Shown here in pieces: positions 5,936 through 24,522 of a stretch of DNA of 64,000 nucleotides. The notes beneath the pieces were generated by a model that had not been told where the DNA came from, ran no database searches, and saw nothing but the letters and a program-made list of their open reading frames with translations. A program made the translations under genes and the position numbers. Location of the stretch: assembly GCA_035998445.1 (NCBI GenBank), contig DASYHQ010000014.1, positions 1 through 64,000 on the forward strand, read 5' to 3'. Numbering within the stretch: the first letter of the stretch is position 1; every line of letters starts with the position of its first letter. This stretch comes from Tepidisphaeraceae bacterium. Its GTDB lineage: Bacteria > Planctomycetota > Phycisphaerae > Tepidisphaerales > Tepidisphaeraceae.

Positions 5936-7081
5936 CTACACACGCCGCGCAGCGGGATCGACCAACCGCACGTTGCAGAGCCGGAAATACGTCTCCTCAT
6001 CCGGCGCCGGCACGCGGGCCATCGACAATCCGTCCTGCTTCCGGCAACCCGGGCAGACGCCCGCGCGGTCGCGGCCGTTGATGAACTTCGGCGTATCGCT
6101 CGTCGGCCAGTCCTCGGGCGCGATGAAGATCAGCCCGCCCTCGCCGTCAAACCGGCCGGTCCAGCCGCACAGCGAACAACTCATCTTCGTCTTGTCCCAG
6201 ACGTGCCCCTCGCGGTTCACGTAGCCGTTGTACTGGAGCTTCAGCACGAGCATCTTGCTGTACTCGCCCGGGCCGGTTCGGATCGCAAGCACGCTGCCGA
6301 AGTTGTCGGCGTCGGCCGCGAAGATATCATGGTTGAAGTCGCGGAAGTCGGCGCCGCGGTGAATCTCGCCCCATCGTGGGGCGACGCGGTCGACGCCATC
6401 CTTGCCGTGGCTGGTGTACAGGTGCTTGCTGACGCGGTCGGCCTTCACCATCGCGTCGAGCTGGTACCAGAGCAGGTTGACGCGCACGGTGGCGGCGAAC
6501 AGTGAATCGCCGTCGGGCACGTCGCCGAACCGTGGGATCACGACGTGCTCGACGTCCTTGGCCCCGCCCGGTGAGCGGCGGCGCACGCTGCCGGCGATCT
6601 CCCACCGCTCGTAGCAGGCGGGCGGGAACAGTTCGCGGAAGGCCTCGCCGTCGGCCAAGGCCTGCTGCCACGGGCGGCGGCCGTCCGGCAGCTTGTCATC
6701 CTGAGGTACTCCGAAGGATCTCACGCGCTGGTGAGGGGGTTTCTGGTACGAGCGTGGGATCGATGGCGACACCGGCCGCTGCGGGCCGCGCTCGGGATCG
6801 CGGGCCAGCGTCACCTCGCCCGTCTCCTTGTCGATCTGCTCGACCATGCGGACGTCCGGGATGAAGTTCGCGTTCAAGGCCTTTAGCGCGCGATCGACGG
6901 CCTGCTCGTACCCTTCGCCAAGTCCGTTGTAGAGCGAGTTTCGGTGAGGCTTGGGCAGCCGATGATAGCACTGCCCGCAGAACGTCTGCCGCGGCATCTT
7001 GCGTTTCCCGCACGCCGGGCAGACAGATCCACGGAGGCTGGCGACCAGGTCGCGCGGGGTCGGTTGACTGATAGTCTGCAT
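5936..7081 (-). CDS. PolX-like nucleotidyltransferase with zinc ribbons
   Basis: A 381-residue protein. The ATG at 7081 follows AGGAAAGGAAG; the longer frame upstream overlaps the preceding gene. Order: N-terminal zinc ribbon (CPACGKRKMPRQTFCGQC), a linker, then residues ~160-200 with EIAGSVRRRSPGGAKDVEHV, matching the G-S-x-R-R...D-x-D/E signature of the DNA polymerase beta nucleotidyltransferase fold (here D-V-E). Later F-x-x-D-I-F and N-F-G-S-V-L...G fit the rest of the fold. C-terminal CSLCGWTG and CPGCRK form more zinc knuckles. The activity may be templated or template-free nucleotide addition. The linker carries a fragment of a dispersed genomic repeat (6694-6723). Confidence 0.6.
   Translation of the reverse strand: MQTISQPTPRDLVASLRGSVCPACGKRKMPRQTFCGQCYHRLPKPHRNSLYNGLGEGYEQAVDRALKALNANFIPDVRMVEQIDKETGEVTLARDPERGPQRPVSPSIPRSYQKPPHQRVRSFGVPQDDKLPDGRRPWQQALADGEAFRELFPPACYERWEIAGSVRRRSPGGAKDVEHVVIPRFGDVPDGDSLFAATVRVNLLWYQLDAMVKADRVSKHLYTSHGKDGVDRVAPRWGEIHRGADFRDFNHDIFAADADNFGSVLAIRTGPGEYSKMLVLKLQYNGYVNREGHVWDKTKMSCSLCGWTGRFDGEGGLIFIAPEDWPTSDTPKFINGRDRAGVCPGCRKQDGLSMARVPAPDEETYFRLCNVRLVDPAARRV
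6694..6723. repeat. Fragment of a dispersed palindromic repeat inside a phage gene
   Basis: TGTCATCCTGAGG followed by CGAAGGATCTCA matches half of the widespread 'GTCATCC-CGA/GAGATCCCTCGG' repeat whose full two-armed form occurs at 43298-43401 in this window. Here it is read in frame, giving the peptide RSFGVPQDDK. Confidence 0.6.
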
Positions 7082-18000: not shown

Positions 18001-18528
18001 TCATTGCCCCGCCACCGGCTGCTGCTTCAGCCAATCCCGACAGCTCCAGCCGGTGATGCGCCGGAACTTGCAGTTCATCCCGCCGGACATCGTCCCCAGC
18101 GCGTCGGCCGCCCTGCTGACGACGCGATGCTCCAGCAGCGCCGCCTTGGCGCGCTTTACCCATTCCTCGTCGCTGATCTTCTCGGCGGCCGGTGCGCGGT
18201 CCGCCGCGCTCGACGGCGTGTCGGGCATCGCCTGCAGCCGCATGGGGTTGATGGGCATCCCGTCACCGGCGCGGCGGAATGGGCGAGCTTCGTCTAGGCC
18301 GCGCGGCTGGCCCATCGGTGGCGGAACGGATGGCCCGACGATCGGCGGTTGCATGGAGGTCGCGGGCTTGGGAGCCGTTCGAACGGCCCGACGCACCGGC
18401 GCCTTGCGAGGAACGCGGGCCGCCGGCCGCTCCGGCTGGGGCGCGGCCGATGCCGGGCTGCTAAGGCGCTCGTCGAGCAGCGCGACGAAATCGGCGTTCT
18501 GGATGTAACGGACGTTGGAAAACGTCAC
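18001..18528 (-). CDS. Hypothetical phage protein with C-terminal helical domain
   Basis: A 175-residue protein, GTG start overlapping the ASCH stop (GTGA). The N-terminal 110 residues are Pro/Arg/Ala-rich and probably disordered; the C-terminal ~60 (EEWVKRAKAALLEHRVVSRA, then MNCKFRRITGWSCRDWL) looks like a small HTH-type fold. Could be a DNA-binding regulator. No firm match. Confidence 0.6.
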   Translation of the reverse strand: MTFSNVRYIQNADFVALLDERLSSPASAAPQPERPAARVPRKAPVRRAVRTAPKPATSMQPPIVGPSVPPPMGQPRGLDEARPFRRAGDGMPINPMRLQAMPDTPSSAADRAPAAEKISDEEWVKRAKAALLEHRVVSRAADALGTMSGGMNCKFRRITGWSCRDWLKQQPVAGQ

Positions 18529-19022
18529 AGCGAGCCTCCCTTCAGCAGGTCATCGGGCACATCGAAGAACCCCTGGGCGCCGCGGAAGGGAACCGGTTTC
18601 GGCAGCGCGACGATTTCCGTGAGGATCCAAGCGAATCGGCCGGGGGTGTAGTCGCCGAACGACAGCTCTGGCTCGGCCGGCGGAAGCGTCACGCTGCGCT
18701 GCGCGTCGCCACCGATGCGGTAGTACTGAGAACCCGCGTCGACCGGGAAGACGTCGGCGAGGTAGCAGGTCCCGACGACGACACCGACCGGCATCGAAAG
18801 GGTCATGCGCTCCGCGTTGATGTCGAGATGGCCCGATCGCTCCAGCGCTTCACGAATCGGCCCAGGTTCGACGCACAGGTCGCTCAGTTCTCGCGGCCAC
18901 CTTTTTGCCGCGTGGATCGCTAGCCGTCCGCGGTAATGCGTCGACCAGCTGCGGGTCTCGATGCGCTTTGCGCCGACGGCGATCAGGGTCGCCCATGGTT
19001 GCCAGAGTGAAATAGCCTTCAT
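18525..19022 (-). CDS. ASCH-domain protein
   Basis: A 165-residue protein. MKAISLWQPWATLIAVGAKR followed by IETRSW is the hallmark N-terminus of ASCH proteins, and YRGRLAIHAAK, VVGTCYLADVF and GRFAWILTEI complete the beta barrel. ASCH/YTH-like barrels bind RNA or modified nucleosides. It is coupled by overlap to the Mom-like gene, suggesting a part in making or recognising a modified base. Confidence 0.85.
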   Translation of the reverse strand: MKAISLWQPWATLIAVGAKRIETRSWSTHYRGRLAIHAAKRWPRELSDLCVEPGPIREALERSGHLDINAERMTLSMPVGVVVGTCYLADVFPVDAGSQYYRIGGDAQRSVTLPPAEPELSFGDYTPGRFAWILTEIVALPKPVPFRGAQGFFDVPDDLLKGGSL

Positions 19023-20023
19023 GCCGCCCTCCTTTGGAGCTTCGGGTAGTCGCGCGACGGCGGCAGGTGCTTGCGCATCCGCCGGTCGATCGCGAACGCA
19101 TACTTGTGGTTGCCCGGGTGGCGCTGAAGGCGGGTCAGCCGAGCGACCTCACCACCAACGCGGATCGGGCAACGGACGGCCCAATCGACGCCGCCGATGC
19201 CGATCAGCTTGCGGGCTACCGACTCCCATCCGCGGTGGTGGCTCTTCAACTTCGCGATTGCGCGATCGGACAGGACTGTGGCATCAGGGAGCAGCCGCAG
19301 GTTGCGGGCGGTGCCGCGGCCGAGGTAGATAGCGTTGCTGGCCTGGTAGATCGTCCCGACGTGCCCGCCGAAGACGGTCCGGCCGTCGGCGGTCGTGCGG
19401 GCCTGGTCGTCGCTGAACGACACGACACCGGCGATGCCCTGACGCTTCAGCAGCTCGAAACACCGCGCGAGGAACCACGTCTCGCCGTTGCCGGGCACGC
19501 GGTCGAGCAGGACGAACCGGCCCAGTTCCGTCGCCGCCAGCGCGTCGCACGGGAAGACGTTCGTCAGCGTGGCGTTGTTGCAGGGGACGCTGAAGACGGC
19601 GACGCCGACGAGCCGCCGGTCATCGACTGAATCAGTTCGTTCCTTGCCTCGGTTGTCAGCAGTTCGGACCAAGGGATTTTCCAGTCGGAGATCACCCGCA
19701 ACGCGGCGGACAGCGTGTTGCGTGCAGCTTTTAGCTTTTGCTCGGGCGATCCCTCGTAATTGATGTGCAGTTCGCCGCTCGTCTTCCCTGTGCGGTCCAC
19801 CTTCGACACGAACTGGACCAGTTTGCGATTCTTGACCATTCCCGACCTCATAAAGCCCGTACCTGAACCGTGCTGCCGGGAACGTCCCGGCGTAGTGATG
19901 CTGCAGGACGAACGCCTTGGCCGTCGTGTCGTCCGCGATCGTCGCCACCTCGTACCGCCGCGGGTCGATGACCTCGCCGGCGGGCCGGTAGCTGTCTCGC
20001 TTGTGGTGCCAACGCTGGTTCAC
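19019..20023 (-). CDS. Mom-like DNA-modification protein with central insert
   Basis: A 334-residue protein, GTG start overlapping the upstream TGA. Residues 1-60 (YEVATIADDTTAKAFVLQHH, then YAGTFPAARFRYGLY) and 137-334 (LVGVAVFSVPCNNATLTNVF, ELGRFVLLDRVPGNGETWFL, GHVGTIYQASNAIYLGRG) match the GNAT-related Mom family of phage Mu, which adds a carbamoylmethyl-type group to adenine in phage DNA. Residues ~61-136 are a basic, low-complexity stretch not expected in the family; the same DNA encodes a better-looking peptide in the +1 frame (19564-19839). Probably functional only if the insert is tolerated. Confidence 0.65.
   Translation of the reverse strand: MNQRWHHKRDSYRPAGEVIDPRRYEVATIADDTTAKAFVLQHHYAGTFPAARFRYGLYEVGNGQESQTGPVRVEGGPHREDERRTAHQLRGIARAKAKSCTQHAVRRVAGDLRLENPLVRTADNRGKERTDSVDDRRLVGVAVFSVPCNNATLTNVFPCDALAATELGRFVLLDRVPGNGETWFLARCFELLKRQGIAGVVSFSDDQARTTADGRTVFGGHVGTIYQASNAIYLGRGTARNLRLLPDATVLSDRAIAKLKSHHRGWESVARKLIGIGGVDWAVRCPIRVGGEVARLTRLQRHPGNHKYAFAIDRRMRKHLPPSRDYPKLQRRAA
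19564..19839 (-). CDS. Small ORF nested in +1 frame inside the Mom-like gene
   Basis: A 91-residue ORF starting MVKNRKLVQFVSKVDRTGKT behind GAGGTCGGGA; an earlier in-frame ATG at 19851 is possible. Its first ~72 residues have a natural composition (ELHINYEGSPEQKLKAARNT, LRVISDWKIPWSELL), whereas the Mom frame over the same bases is Arg/Gly-rich filler. The last ~19 residues overlap conserved Mom codons and look non-natural. Codons are less GC-rich than in neighbouring genes. No family recognised. Whether it is translated is inference. Confidence 0.5.
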   Translation of the reverse strand: MVKNRKLVQFVSKVDRTGKTSGELHINYEGSPEQKLKAARNTLSAALRVISDWKIPWSELLTTEARNELIQSMTGGSSASPSSASPATTPR

Positions 20024-20334
20024 TTGGCACCTCCGGCCGTCGCTTCAGGCGCGATCTCGCTGGCGTGCACAAGGTGGCCCGAACCATCGTCGAGCTTGCC
20101 GTATATGACCTCGTCATCGATGGGCAGGCCGGCGAACGCCGATCGCATCGCGTACATCAGACAGGCCGGGTTGCCGTCGCAAAGCTTCCATGAGCGGCCG
20201 GCGACGTTGGTCCACCAGTCCTCGACGCGGAGCTTCTTGCCATCCAAAAGGCGGTCGACCGTGTCCGGTTTGCCGGCGATCTGCAGATCTACGGTTCGTC
20301 CCGCGAGCGGGTGACGTTGACGTTGTTGGTTCAA
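20020..20334 (-). CDS. Hypothetical phage protein, 104 residues
   Basis: A TTG start at 20334 (MNQQRQRHPLAGRTVDLQIA) overlaps the TGA of the PAPS-reductase-like gene, with GGGGGTG upstream; no better start is visible. Contains VEDWWTNVAGRSWKLCDGNP and CLMYAMR. Strand-rich; the W/Y-rich core suggests a small barrel. It is coupled on both sides to modification genes and so may be an accessory to them. Confidence 0.6.
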   Translation of the reverse strand: MNQQRQRHPLAGRTVDLQIAGKPDTVDRLLDGKKLRVEDWWTNVAGRSWKLCDGNPACLMYAMRSAFAGLPIDDEVIYGKLDDGSGHLVHASEIAPEATAGGAK

Positions 20335-21101
20335 GCTGCACCCCCTGCCAGCACGCGGAGCGGCACGCGCGATTGGTGCATCGTGTAGCCTGTCCGTTCC
20401 TCGACCTCGACGTAGCGGGCAAACAGCTGGGGGTTATGTCGGGCCGCGTTCGCCAGGTCGTTGCGCGAGCCCATGATGCAGAACATGCACGACAGGCGTT
20501 CGTTGCCCGCGGCGTAGGCCCAATGGGGCTGCTCGCCGGCCGCCTTGATCGACGCGAACACCTCGTTGCGCGACATGTCGTGGATCGGCAACCATTCCCA
20601 CCAATCTCGACCGGCCACTGAATTTCGCTCGCTGCGACGCAAGGGCTGGATCTTCGCCCGCTTCGGCGACTCCTGGGCACGGATGCCCATGCACGTGACG
20701 ACGCGGCTCAAACCGCGGGCGGCCAGCAGCCGGCGGATCTCCCGCTCGATCGGGCCGCGTTTCAGGTCACTGGTACACTGGCGGTTGGCGGCCGACGGCC
20801 AGCAGGGCGAGTTGGGGCCCGGCCGTACCGTGAACCGGTGCTCGACCATCTGGAAGAACGTCTTGACGGCCGTGGCGACCATGAACGGCATCCCCTCGCG
20901 CTCGGCGCCCGCGCGGGCATGCTCCAACGCGCCCGGCCACTCGACGTCGCCAAGGCTGGCGTGGATCACGACTTTCTGCTCGGCGGGGACAATGTCGCGG
21001 AGCGCCAGGCGCATCGCTTGGCTGTCCTTGCCGCCGCTGTCGTTCAGGACGAACAGAGCGCCGCCGTCGATCATCTCACGGATGGTGGGTGGAACGTTCA
21101 C
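20331..21101 (-). CDS. PAPS-reductase/DndC-like protein
   Basis: A 256-residue protein, GTG start overlapping the methyltransferase stop. FVLNDSGGKDSQAMRLALRD is the PP-loop (SGGKDS) of the adenine-nucleotide alpha-hydrolase/PAPS-reductase family; RQCTSDLKRGPIEREIRRLL, GIRAQESPKRAK and the Cys pair CMFCIMGS follow in the family order. Such phage proteins resemble DndC, which works in DNA phosphorothioation, or sulfur/thio nucleoside chemistry. With Mom-like, ASCH and methylase neighbours a role in DNA modification is likely; the substrate is unknown. Confidence 0.8.
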   Translation of the reverse strand: MNVPPTIREMIDGGALFVLNDSGGKDSQAMRLALRDIVPAEQKVVIHASLGDVEWPGALEHARAGAEREGMPFMVATAVKTFFQMVEHRFTVRPGPNSPCWPSAANRQCTSDLKRGPIEREIRRLLAARGLSRVVTCMGIRAQESPKRAKIQPLRRSERNSVAGRDWWEWLPIHDMSRNEVFASIKAAGEQPHWAYAAGNERLSCMFCIMGSRNDLANAARHNPQLFARYVEVEERTGYTMHQSRVPLRVLAGGAA

Positions 21102-23773
21102 GCCGTCACCGCCCCTCGGTAGTTTTCCAGCACGCCCTGCGCGACCACATTGGCGTAGGCGATCGCCTCCATGACCTGCCGGCAGACGCTGTTACCGATC
21201 AGCTTCACCTGGTCAGCCTTCTTGACCCACGTGCCGTCCACCGTGCGATCGATCACGTAGTCGTCGGCGAAGCCCTGCGCCCGCGCCAACTCGCGGGGGC
21301 GCAGCATGCGCATCGCAATGTCGGTGATGACGTGCAGCGCGCCGTCGAACGCGAGCATCAACAGTGCGAAGCGCTTGCCGGCCTGATCGGTGACCCACAT
21401 CAGGTGCTTGTCGACCTTCTTGCCCAGCAGCTTGCGGGCCCAATTCGCGACCTGCTTCGCCCGTGCCAGCGACTTGGCGCTGAAGATCCAATGGGGAGTC
21501 GACTCGACCGACACCGCGGCGAAACGATCTTGGCTGACGACGGTCGGCATCGGGTCGCCGGGCGTGTGCCCCGTCTTGCCCGAGCCTTCGCCGTAGTAGG
21601 CGGCTAGGTAGACGACGGCCGCGGCGCCGTGCTGGCCGCCGCTGGTGATCGTCTTGGCGGGCTTCGCCGGGTCGCCCTCGCCCCCGCAGGTGTTCGACGT
21701 GTACATGTGCGTCAGGTAGGCAACGACCGCCCCCATGGCGTGGGCGGCGCCCGCATCGCGCGACGAGTTGCCGCCGGCCGTGATCGTGTCCATCGGGTCG
21801 CCCGCGCCGGTCCCGGGCGACTTGCCGCGGAACTTCACCAGGTGCGCCGCGAGGATCGAGTTGTGATCGACGCCAGTGACCGTCCCAAGCGGCTCGCCCG
21901 CCGCTTGGCCGACGACGCCCGTGTAATGCTTGTTGAGCGCTACGGCGACGAGGTTCTTGTCGCCGTAGCTGGTGACCGTCTTCAGCGGCGCCTCGGCCGA
22001 GTCAAAGTATCGGCCGCGCCCGGTCGTCTTCGTGTTCGCCGAGCTGGTGATGTACGGCGCGACTTTGGCAGCGACGAGCGACTTGCGATCGTCGGCGGTG
22101 ACGGTGTTGAACGGAACGTCGATCGCCTTGGGCTTGCCCGAGTAGGCGGGGCCGCCTGCGCCGATCGAGAACGGCGCGACCTCCGCGGCGACGACGCCAT
22201 AGCGGTTTTGCGTGTCGAGCGTGTTCAGGGGCTGGTCGGGGCTAAGCCCGCGCACCTCGTCGCCCTTGGCGCCGTGGTAGGTGGACAGGTGGACCGCAAC
22301 CGCTCCCCGTGCGTCACGCGCACCGGTGACGGTGCTGAGCGGGTCCCGAACGTCGGCCGTCCGATGGCCCGCGCCGCCGTGGTTGAACGTGCCGGTGTAG
22401 GCGGCCAGTTCGACGTCGACCGCAGCGTGCTTGCCACCCTTGGGACCAGCGGTGACCGTCGACAGCGGGTCGGTGGCGGGTCGGCCGGCTGCCGACGAAT
22501 TCCACCCGTAGTTCTCGATGTTGAGGATGAACGGCTTGGCGGCGTCGAGCACCCACTTAAGCAGCCCGCCGGCAAGGCGGTTCTGCGTCATGGGCCGCAG
22601 CGGGCGCTGTGGGATGCCGACGCGGTCGTGCTTCGGACGCGACTTGTTGATCTCCCGCGACCAACGACGGGCCTCGGCCCGAGTGGCGAAGATGCTCAAC
22701 ATCGGCTGCGACCAGTCGATGCACTCGGCGGCGGCGTGAAAGGGCTTCAGTCGCGGGTGACCCGCCGTAGCTCCCGGAACTTCTTCTCGATCGTTCGCTT
22801 TTCCCTGGCCTTCAGTTCGCGATCCATGTCGAAGCTGAGGATTTCGACGCCGTCGGGCCGGCGTTGCACCGCCCGCGGGGATTTCTTGTAACGGATCGTG
22901 GTCGCTTCGACCTTCGTTCCGTCCGTCAATATGAATGTCGCCGAATCGAGACGCTCGAACATCTTCTTTACCATGTGTTGCCTCCGGCCAAATGATCGGC
23001 TTGCCATCGCACCGTGCGATGACCTTCAGCCGCTTACGGGTTGTCGGCGTGCCGTAGTCGCACGCCCGCAGGTCATCGTGCTCGACCACATAGCCGAGTG
23101 CTTCCAGTTCCGCCTTCCAGCGGTTGAACTCCGTGCCCCGCCGCGCGGGGTCGGGCATCAGGTGCGCCTCGACCGACCAGCCGGACGATTCCCATTCGGC
23201 GACGAAGCTGGCGGCCTCTGCGGAATCCAGCTTCGGCCCGGGGATCGTCGCGACCGGCCGCTCAGTCCCGGCGCGGCGGCGGATCCACGCCCAGCGGCGC
23301 CCGAGCCGCTTGTGCATCAGCGGGCCCCACTCCTTGAACTCCTCGACGTTCTCGAGGGTGATCACGTCGGGGCGGCGCTTGGCGGCCCATACGAGCACGA
23401 CGTCGGCCAGCGCCCGGATGTGCTTGCGCTTGGGCATCCCGCCCTTGGCCTTGGAGAAGTCGGTGCAGTCGGGACTGGCGTGCAGGTAGGCGATCTCCCG
23501 GCCGGGCAGGACATCGTCGGGGTCGACCTCCCACACGTCGGCGTGCAGGTGCTCGGTCATCGGGTGGTTCAGTTCGTGAACCTTGACGGCCGTCTCCCAA
23601 TGGTTCACGCACAGGTCGACGAACTTGTCCCGGTACCCGCCGCGGACGTAGGCGTCCTCAATGCCGATGCACGCGCCGCCTAAACCGGCGAACAGCACGA
23701 CGGTGGCGCGACCGAAAAGGCCGGGCAGGCGGTCGGCACGAGCGGAGAACGTTTGTAGGGGTGCTGCCGTCAT
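21098..23773 (-). CDS. Giant C5-cytosine DNA methyltransferase-like protein with nine repeats and an insert
   Basis: An 891-residue protein. Motif I LFAGLGGACIG (~27-37), motif IV ASPDCTDFSKAKGG with the catalytic Cys near 103, motif VI LENVEEF (~140), motif VIII DYGTPTTRKRLKVIA, and C-terminal LRPRELARAQGF and LIGNSVC (IX/X). Between them are about nine copies of a repeat built on D-P-(L/M)-x-T-(V/I)-T plus a V-A-x-(Y/F) strand, an unusually long recognition region. Residues just after WPEATHG and before LKPFHAAAECIDW form basic filler over a nested +1 ORF (22747-22974). The ancestral function is cytosine-C5 methylation of phage DNA. Confidence 0.8.
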   Translation of the reverse strand: MTAAPLQTFSARADRLPGLFGRATVVLFAGLGGACIGIEDAYVRGGYRDKFVDLCVNHWETAVKVHELNHPMTEHLHADVWEVDPDDVLPGREIAYLHASPDCTDFSKAKGGMPKRKHIRALADVVLVWAAKRRPDVITLENVEEFKEWGPLMHKRLGRRWAWIRRRAGTERPVATIPGPKLDSAEAASFVAEWESSGWSVEAHLMPDPARRGTEFNRWKAELEALGYVVEHDDLRACDYGTPTTRKRLKVIARCDGKPIIWPEATHGKEDVRASRFGDIHIDGRNEGRSDHDPLQEIPAGGATPARRRRNPQLRHGSRTEGQGKANDREEVPGATAGHPRLKPFHAAAECIDWSQPMLSIFATRAEARRWSREINKSRPKHDRVGIPQRPLRPMTQNRLAGGLLKWVLDAAKPFILNIENYGWNSSAAGRPATDPLSTVTAGPKGGKHAAVDVELAAYTGTFNHGGAGHRTADVRDPLSTVTGARDARGAVAVHLSTYHGAKGDEVRGLSPDQPLNTLDTQNRYGVVAAEVAPFSIGAGGPAYSGKPKAIDVPFNTVTADDRKSLVAAKVAPYITSSANTKTTGRGRYFDSAEAPLKTVTSYGDKNLVAVALNKHYTGVVGQAAGEPLGTVTGVDHNSILAAHLVKFRGKSPGTGAGDPMDTITAGGNSSRDAGAAHAMGAVVAYLTHMYTSNTCGGEGDPAKPAKTITSGGQHGAAAVVYLAAYYGEGSGKTGHTPGDPMPTVVSQDRFAAVSVESTPHWIFSAKSLARAKQVANWARKLLGKKVDKHLMWVTDQAGKRFALLMLAFDGALHVITDIAMRMLRPRELARAQGFADDYVIDRTVDGTWVKKADQVKLIGNSVCRQVMEAIAYANVVAQGVLENYRGAVTA
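22747..22974 (-). CDS. Small ORF nested in +1 frame inside the C5-methyltransferase gene
   Basis: A 75-residue ORF (MVKKMFERLDSATFILTDGT...RELRRVTRD). The conserved WPEATHG codons of the host gene (CCG GAG GCA ACA CAT GG) create GGAG, a six-base spacer and the ATG; the stop is TGA inside CTGAAG, exactly where the conserved LKPF block of the methyltransferase resumes. The +1 product has a natural beta-beta-alpha composition with a Lys/Arg/Glu helix, and its codons are visibly less GC-rich than the flanks. No family is recognised. Confidence 0.55.
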   Translation of the reverse strand: MVKKMFERLDSATFILTDGTKVEATTIRYKKSPRAVQRRPDGVEILSFDMDRELKAREKRTIEKKFRELRRVTRD

Positions 23774-23775
23774 GA

Positions 23776-24135
23776 TTAGTTGACCCCCGGCTCGTTGGTG
23801 CGCTTCCGGATCGGCTCCATGGGGAACGGGGCAACGACGTAGGAGCCCGACGACAGCAGATCGGACAGCGACGCTTGGGCGGCCGACGCGTCGATCGTCA
23901 GCTTAAATGCTGGCTTGGGTGGGACGGGGCGCCACCGGCCCCGCCACGCGATGCGCAGTTGGACCATGGGCAACACGCCGAGCACGAAGCTCCGTACGGT
24001 CGCCTCGGCGCAGTGGCCCGGCCCGCTGCCGAAGTGGTTGCACTTGTGGACTGTGTCGCGGGACAGCGGCAAGACGCCGATCCACCAGTCGGAGGCATAG
24101 AAGAACGGCTTGACGGTGAGACGGTTAGTCTTCAC
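23776..24135 (-). CDS. Hypothetical phage protein, 119 residues
   Basis: GTG start overlapping the csrA stop (GTGA). Sequence [39 protein letters not shown] and [17 protein letters not shown]; Cys/His residues could bind a metal. C-terminal ~40 residues are mixed. No family recognised. Second gene of the leftward operon. Confidence 0.6.
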
Positions 24136-24386
24136 TTTCCACCCCCTGCCGCCGGGCCAGTCAGGGTTGTCACAACACCGGACGCGACGATCTCGCCCGG
24201 CTTCACTTGGGCGGCAGCCCGGTTCTCCCGGCGGATGGCGTCGTAAACTTCCTTGCGGTGGACGGTGATGTCCTTTGGGGCGTTGATGCCCAGGCGGACC
24301 TTGTCCCCGCGGATGTCGACCACGGTGACCTCGATGTCGTTCCCGATCATGATGGTTTCATCGCGCTGGCGCGAAAGTACGAGCAC
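24132..24386 (-). CDS. csrA: CsrA-family RNA-binding regulator, first gene of the prophage operon
   Basis: An 84-residue protein. GTG start at 24386 behind [26 protein letters not shown] is the near-invariant CsrA N-terminus, and [20 protein letters not shown] follows in order. The C-terminus is extended by ~25 Val/Gly/Ala-rich residues compared with typical 60-65-residue CsrA. CsrA dimers bind GGA-containing hairpins in mRNA leaders and block ribosomes or change stability. The stop overlaps the next phage gene, tying it to the prophage operon rather than to the host. It may reprogram host translation or tune phage genes. Confidence 0.9.
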
Positions 24387-24522
24387 GGCGGCCTCCTTGC
24401 AGTGGGTGAAAACGGAGGCGCGGCACCCCCGTGGCGTGCGACCCTCGGCGGAATTCGCCGGAGGGACACCTAACAGAATGGCTTGTTTTTTCAGGCTTAA
24501 ACCGTAAAACGAGGGGACCACG

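Follow-up and report, generated by a model that had tools for sequence, protein, structure and literature searches.

In the window, that is, the whole stretch of 64,000 nucleotides from a Tepidisphaeraceae bacterium that was analysed, the gene of a phage-type C5-cytosine DNA methyltransferase contains a second, much smaller open reading frame (ORF) in the +1 frame relative to the 891-aa methyltransferase ORF. We consider it likely that this is a small phage gene placed out of frame in a loop of the enzyme just after the R-x-R motif, that its Shine-Dalgarno sequence and ATG would come from the conserved W-P-E-x-T-H-G codons of the host gene and its stop from the L-K codons, and that the slot has been reused, related methyltransferases carrying other small ORFs there. 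The anatomy of the arrangement, the homologues in which the site is empty and its recurrence elsewhere with mostly different sequences are plain observations. An earlier sequence-only reading had seen here a gene inserted inside a gene; as far as the comparison of sequences can tell, that reading is supported, and it is extended here to six further loci. The features concerned are collected in Table 1.

Table 1. Features of the methyltransferase locus (positions are those of the window)
Feature	Position	Strand	Basis
Host gene, phage-type C5-cytosine DNA methyltransferase, 891 aa	21098..23773	minus	PF00145 and phrog_116
Nested +1 ORF, ATG and 74 further codons (75) and TGA	22747..22974	minus	reading frame analysis; GC by codon position; codon usage
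GGAGG, Shine-Dalgarno-like, from host codons P-E-A, 6 nt 5' of the nested ATG	22981..22985	minus	sequence; compared with empty sites
CTGAAG, host L-K codons holding the +1 stop TGA (22749-22747)	22745..22750	minus	sequence
Insert as translated in the host frame: basic loop of low complexity without internal stop	22751..22969	minus	translation; model pLDDT <50
PAPS-reductase-like gene downstream of the methyltransferase, 4-nt overlap	20331..21101	minus	PF01507 E 5.4e-8; phrog_424 E 1.5e-35

The host gene is a member of the phage C5-cytosine methyltransferases: PF00145 matches with an E-value of 2.8e-23 and 83.3 bits against a curated cut-off of 22 (Pfam), phrog_116 matches with an E-value of 7.7e-72 (PHROGs), and 246 phage records match the protein in a tblastn search. 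Its translation contains SPDC, ENV, RxR and GNSV, invariant or nearly so in the alignment of homologues, which we take to be the catalytic and cofactor motifs. No intein family was found among its Pfam matches, and the insert measures only about 225 nt. Other genes of the neighbourhood lie on the minus strand as well. A Mom-like DNA-modification protein is encoded at 19019-20023 (PF25680, E 1.4e-18; phrog_1384, E 2.5e-24), in the run of genes to which the methyltransferase belongs. At 18525-19022 lies a member of phrog_3193 (E 1.5e-37), a family of unknown function, which presumably resembles an ASCH-domain protein. A short way upstream of the methyltransferase lies an ORF (24132-24521) whose C-terminal half, we assume, resembles CsrA.

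Reading of the minus strand confirmed that the nested ORF occupies the place and frame claimed for it. Its ATG, starting at 22974, straddles two codons of T-H-G, with two bases from the end of CAT and one from the beginning of GGT: the host message TGG CCG GAG GCA ACA CAT GGT encodes W-P-E-A-T-H-G, and shifted by one base it reads GGAGG, six bases, ATG. The sequence-only reading was therefore right that these host codons supply both the Shine-Dalgarno sequence and the start, and only slightly off in counting a six-base spacer from GGAG, from which the distance is 7 nt (6 nt from GGAGG). Its placing of the stop inside the L-K codons also stood. The insert is less GC-rich than its flanks, as had been noted (57-59% against 69-70%), and the nested ORF has GC contents of 0.56/0.41/0.78 at codon positions 1/2/3, a coding signature. 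The codons of the insert had been said to look natural only in the +1 frame; using codon usage trained on neighbouring long ORFs, this frame was found to be the best of six (0.273, z 5.6), and the description of the host frame as basic filler was borne out by a basic, low-complexity translation that is open throughout. The codon usage is strong evidence that the ORF is more than chance. That the +1 frame is open counts for little when taken by itself (P ~0.07 by shuffling), and for both frames to be open together P is ~0.002. Folded alone by AlphaFold2 from a single sequence, the nested protein gave a weak model with four strands and one helix (mean pLDDT 62.8), while in the model of the methyltransferase the pLDDT is below 50 at residues 272-337. 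This contrast between a floppy host-frame loop and a better-modelled nested protein is only suggestive, because much of the repeat region of the methyltransferase model also falls below 50.

To establish the length of the loop across the family, 231 homologues obtained by three similarity searches and pattern scans were compared. The loop, taken from WPxxTH to the AAExIDW block, was measurable in 212; the 19 proteins without a match to the regular expression were dropped, and 15 of these are visibly short. The window loop has 80 residues, whereas 203 of the 212 measured loops have at most 23, the commonest length being 18. The nine longer ones belong to the window, to five further loci with a nested ORF (G352, G555, L215, L237 and L250) and to L226, L180 and L062. 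As the measured loops include loci picked by pattern, these counts are not population frequencies. When the branch of the window was targeted in another scan, 73 further loci were obtained, with 66 measurable loops; the long ones are those of L364 (the contig of L237), L369 (the contig of L215) and L317 (32 aa). The site is empty in G650, the next nearest relative after G352 and G555. The alignment at WPExTHG...LKPxxxAAECIDW that the sequence-only reading had proposed as a check thus finds the insert absent from most homologues; that reading would have been refuted had all of them carried the stretch with conservation in the host frame, which is not the case. An in-frame, new target-recognition domain was rejected as an explanation of the long loops, the host-frame translations being unlike each other and unlike family sequences.

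A +1 ORF starting at this ATG was found at seven loci: the window, G352, G555, L215, L223, L237 and L250. G352 and G555, prophages in congeneric genomes of the window's class, were found by protein similarity regardless of frame; the others come from viral contigs, L237 and L250 with a pattern requiring GGAG and ATG, and L215 and L223 with a pattern requiring ATG; the scan giving L237 and L250 comprised 82 contigs, mostly methyltransferases with short loops. In G352 (78 codons) and G555 (67 codons), GGAG precedes the ORF, whose start codon is the ATG of T-H/Y-G and whose end lies in TTAAAA, at L-K; the cargo ranges from 36 to 104 codons across the set. The stop lies at L-K (L-T in L250) in four of the seven cases, namely the window, G352, G555 and L250, that of L215 comes 11 codons earlier, and in L223 and L237 the ORF continues past this point in host sequence. 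An intact L215 methyltransferase was found in L369, and the G555 gene is identical to the viral contig L256 over 2,325 nt. Integrase genes are found near G352 and G555, a RecT-like annealase near G555, and a member of phrog_424 about 1 kb downstream of the G555 methyltransferase. In two viral contigs that are identical here, L223 and L228, most of the methyltransferase has been lost and WPEVTHG, the small ORF and AAEVIDW remain, which fits the expectation that it is the small gene that is being retained. The remnant around the small ORF reads WPEVTHG...AAEVIDWSDLGTSIFEQ.

Codon position 2 is the GC minimum of the +1 frame in all seven nested loci (and in L226). Scored by codon usage, the nested frame ranks first among all six in the window and G352, and first among those free of stops in G555, L215 and L250; a reverse frame outscores it in L223 and L237, as does the host frame in L223. 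The host frame contains no stop in any of the seven inserts, against one to three stops in the third frame. When the nested ORFs were shuffled synonymously, the probability of an open host frame was 0.35 for the window, 0.011 for G352, 0.005 for G555, 0.75 for L215, 0.50 for L223, 0.50 for L237 and 0.004 for L250, and the product of these values, L226 included, was 1.2e-8. The signal comes from G352, G555 and L250, not from the window. The open host frame is thus an observation made on the set; for the window's own gene pair we have a coding-like +1 frame and no close relatives of the insert.

The host codons preceding the nested ATG were compared with those of a further 208 sites carrying the motif, in whose selection no GGAG or ATG pattern had been used. 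The x of WPExTHG is proline in 162 of the 208 and Ala, Val or Lys in all seven nested cases (not proline in 7/7 against 46/208, p 4e-5). A Shine-Dalgarno match of at least 5 nt was found in five of the seven, reaching 8 nt, GGAGGTGA, in L223 and L250, against 8 of the 208 (p 7e-6), and no comparison site combines such a match with an ATG. In this comparison the sites were taken by motif, the sequences are related, and L237 and L250 had been preselected for GGAG and ATG; among the five nested cases not chosen for GGAG, three have a match of at least 5 nt. We count the tuned ribosome-binding codons among the observations in the limited sense that, without expression data, the codons of the host gene give the impression of having been tuned to bind ribosomes for the nested ORF. 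An excess of CAT at T-H of the empty sites, tried as a sign of selection, proved weak (66/154 against 53 expected).

Judged from the alignment of G352 and G555, the divergence between these two genes sets in at the start codon and is over at the stop codon: 54 of 60 nt are identical up to and including the ATG and 57 of 60 from the stop onward, whereas the inserts themselves are barely above shuffled sequence as DNA (z 2.3) and marginal as proteins (z 3.4). Because the relatives of the G352 protein, when compared with the G555 protein, proved dissimilar to it, we read the two cargoes as different genes, which may be remote relatives. Pairwise comparison of the seven nested proteins revealed no clear relationship, L223 and L237 being marginal (z 3.1). 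The G352 cargo is a member of the family of WP_011831595.1 (Methylibium plasmid) and WEV89219.1 (Synechococcus phage MinM2). It has 43% identity to the former (E 9e-7) and 39% to a cyanophage protein (E 3e-6), with matches in three cyanophage records; it begins near the start of these free-standing relatives and shares with them G-E-x-I-P-x-x-E-P-V-F-I-x-R-A-x-D. That one cargo has free-standing homologues is observed, and these homologues are the firmest evidence that inserts of this kind are genes. Apart from one weak partial match (E 0.003), the G352 protein was not found in 343 genomes of the phylum, and it had no match in the viral contigs; for the nested proteins of G555, L223, L237 and L250 nothing was found in phages. 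The 75-residue protein of the window finds only itself in its own genome, only 2 records at E 0.5 in phages and none in plasmids. Among 387 genomes of the class, 16 matches besides itself were obtained at E ≤0.1, the best at 0.0115 and none significant, and no significant match was found in Pfam or PHROGs, nor any at E 0.001 or better with Foldseek on the low-confidence model. Unlike the G352 cargo, it is not a detectable member of the WP_011831595.1/WEV89219.1 family (hhalign probability 0.12%).

The same methyltransferase site also takes material that is not a gene (L226, L222/L224 and L180). L226 was first counted as nested and then excluded, as it holds an inverted repeat and no coding signal (z 0.4); the repeat, at 6396-6519 of that contig, has 24-nt arms, 92% complementary and 76 nt apart, and the L226 methyltransferase also lacks its N-terminal part. 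In L222 (10753-10945) and L224 (57-249) an in-frame tandem duplication, not a nested ORF, repeats the AAExIDW block, and L180 has a longer host-frame loop. L225 is an assembly joint with N and not a case; L227, L229 and L230 were set aside as irrelevant. In a quick tree the two branches with nested ORFs group together with a support of only 51, and parsimony requires two changes in one tree and three in another, so that the question of one or two origins is left unresolved by the available trees.

It could be argued from these cases that the loop tolerates any DNA and that the +1 ORF arose by accident, GC-rich sequence happening to follow a chance ATG. The repeat, the duplication and the L180 loop do show that it accepts other material, +1 ORFs of up to 139 codons are found at some empty sites, and an open +1 frame in the window insert has a P of only ~0.07 by shuffling. 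We nevertheless regard such an accident as decidedly unlikely in view of the codon usage of the window's +1 frame, the fact that the G352 cargo has genuine homologues, the tuning of the ribosome-binding codons and the confinement of the G352/G555 change to the stretch from start to stop. It is also unlikely, if not to be dismissed, that the small gene was never captured and instead grew by expansion of the mini-ORF that an empty site may contain between its ATG and the next +1 stop. Mini-ORFs of 4-13 codons are present in 30 of the 62 ATG-bearing sites, and the window protein has no detectable homologue; against such de novo overprinting stand the existence of the G352 cargo family as separate genes elsewhere and the GC content of the window insert, which is unlike that of its flanks. 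In overprinted nested phage genes, for example in phiX174, the new frame arises by substitutions within an existing coding sequence (PMC8227390). Two proteins from one DNA stretch in different frames are common to both situations, but here the stretch has been inserted and, for one relative (G352), comes from a known gene family.

Two further explanations keep the insertion and change its reading or its nature. The small ORF might be reached by +1 frameshifting, giving a truncated methyltransferase with a new tail in place of an internal start, and it is true that the host frame enters the site and that a Shine-Dalgarno-like sequence lies upstream. Stimulators of +1 shifts, however, generally lie at a shorter distance from the site of the shift, the spacer of 6 nt is suitable for initiation, the small ORF of L223/L228 persists with most of the methyltransferase gone and the G352 protein starts near the start of its free-standing relatives; consequently, we find frameshifting very improbable. 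We give still less credence to a selfish homing element with an endonuclease hidden out of frame, of the type of the ShiLan domain and the Pacc40 gp60 insertion in mycobacteriophage methylases. These out-of-frame insertions are reported to encode HNH-type endonucleases of 160-195 aa, to be associated with homing and to have no detectable ribosome-binding site (PMC11855218, PMC9957025), the ShiLan ORF starting at a GTG 18 bp inside the insertion (PMC11855218). The overall anatomy is the same: a phage DNA methylase gene contains an additional ORF in a different frame while its own frame is not interrupted, and the host-frame product of the insert is predicted there to be disordered (PMC11855218). 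The window locus shares with the ShiLan type this out-of-frame ORF and the uninterrupted host frame. The cargo of the present set differs, however, in having 36-104 codons and mostly different sequences at one site, with no HNH match and no endonuclease found in the nested cargo in Pfam and PHROGs at E-values up to 10, and host codons here supply the Shine-Dalgarno sequence and the ATG and, in four cases, the stop. The host genes also belong to different families, ShiLan gp65 being an N6/N4 methylase (PF01555, N6_N4_Mtase) and ours a C5 methylase, and the two proteins gave no significant alignment (best E 2.2). We found no report of exchangeable small genes at this methyltransferase site in the literature, where subscription papers were mostly outside our coverage.

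If, as we prefer, a small gene has been placed out of frame in the methyltransferase loop, ribosomes translating the methyltransferase would pass through the open host frame of the insert and produce an enzyme with a floppy extra loop, and other ribosomes would enter the message at the internal site and produce the small protein. The translation of both products and the activity of the methyltransferase with the insert are inferred, as is the exchange of cargo, which would probably proceed via recombination at the gene ends, a process that a phage annealase would help. From its place among DNA-modification genes, the 75-residue protein may be inferred to have an accessory early-phage role at most. 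We see the case as evenly balanced for the broader proposal that WPExTHG...LK doubles as an expression cassette, its +1 frame providing ribosome-binding site, start and stop, into which phages can insert small genes, and exchange them, with the methyltransferase left intact. On this proposal two branches of the family would have made repeated use of the slot for unrelated cargo, the shift of x from proline to Ala, Val or Lys sharpening the ribosome-binding site.

Out-of-frame genes in phage methylases have been known as hidden endonucleases whose translation was unexplained; the present set offers a case with a recognisable translation signal, lying in codons of the host protein itself, and with cargo that varies at a fixed site. 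This spot of the methyltransferase may be a ready-made slot for extra genes. If this is true, phages would have a testable route to gain small genes without disturbing gene order, annotation would be missing small genes inside conserved enzymes, and a protein sequence would have been adjusted to serve the ribosome-binding site of a second gene.
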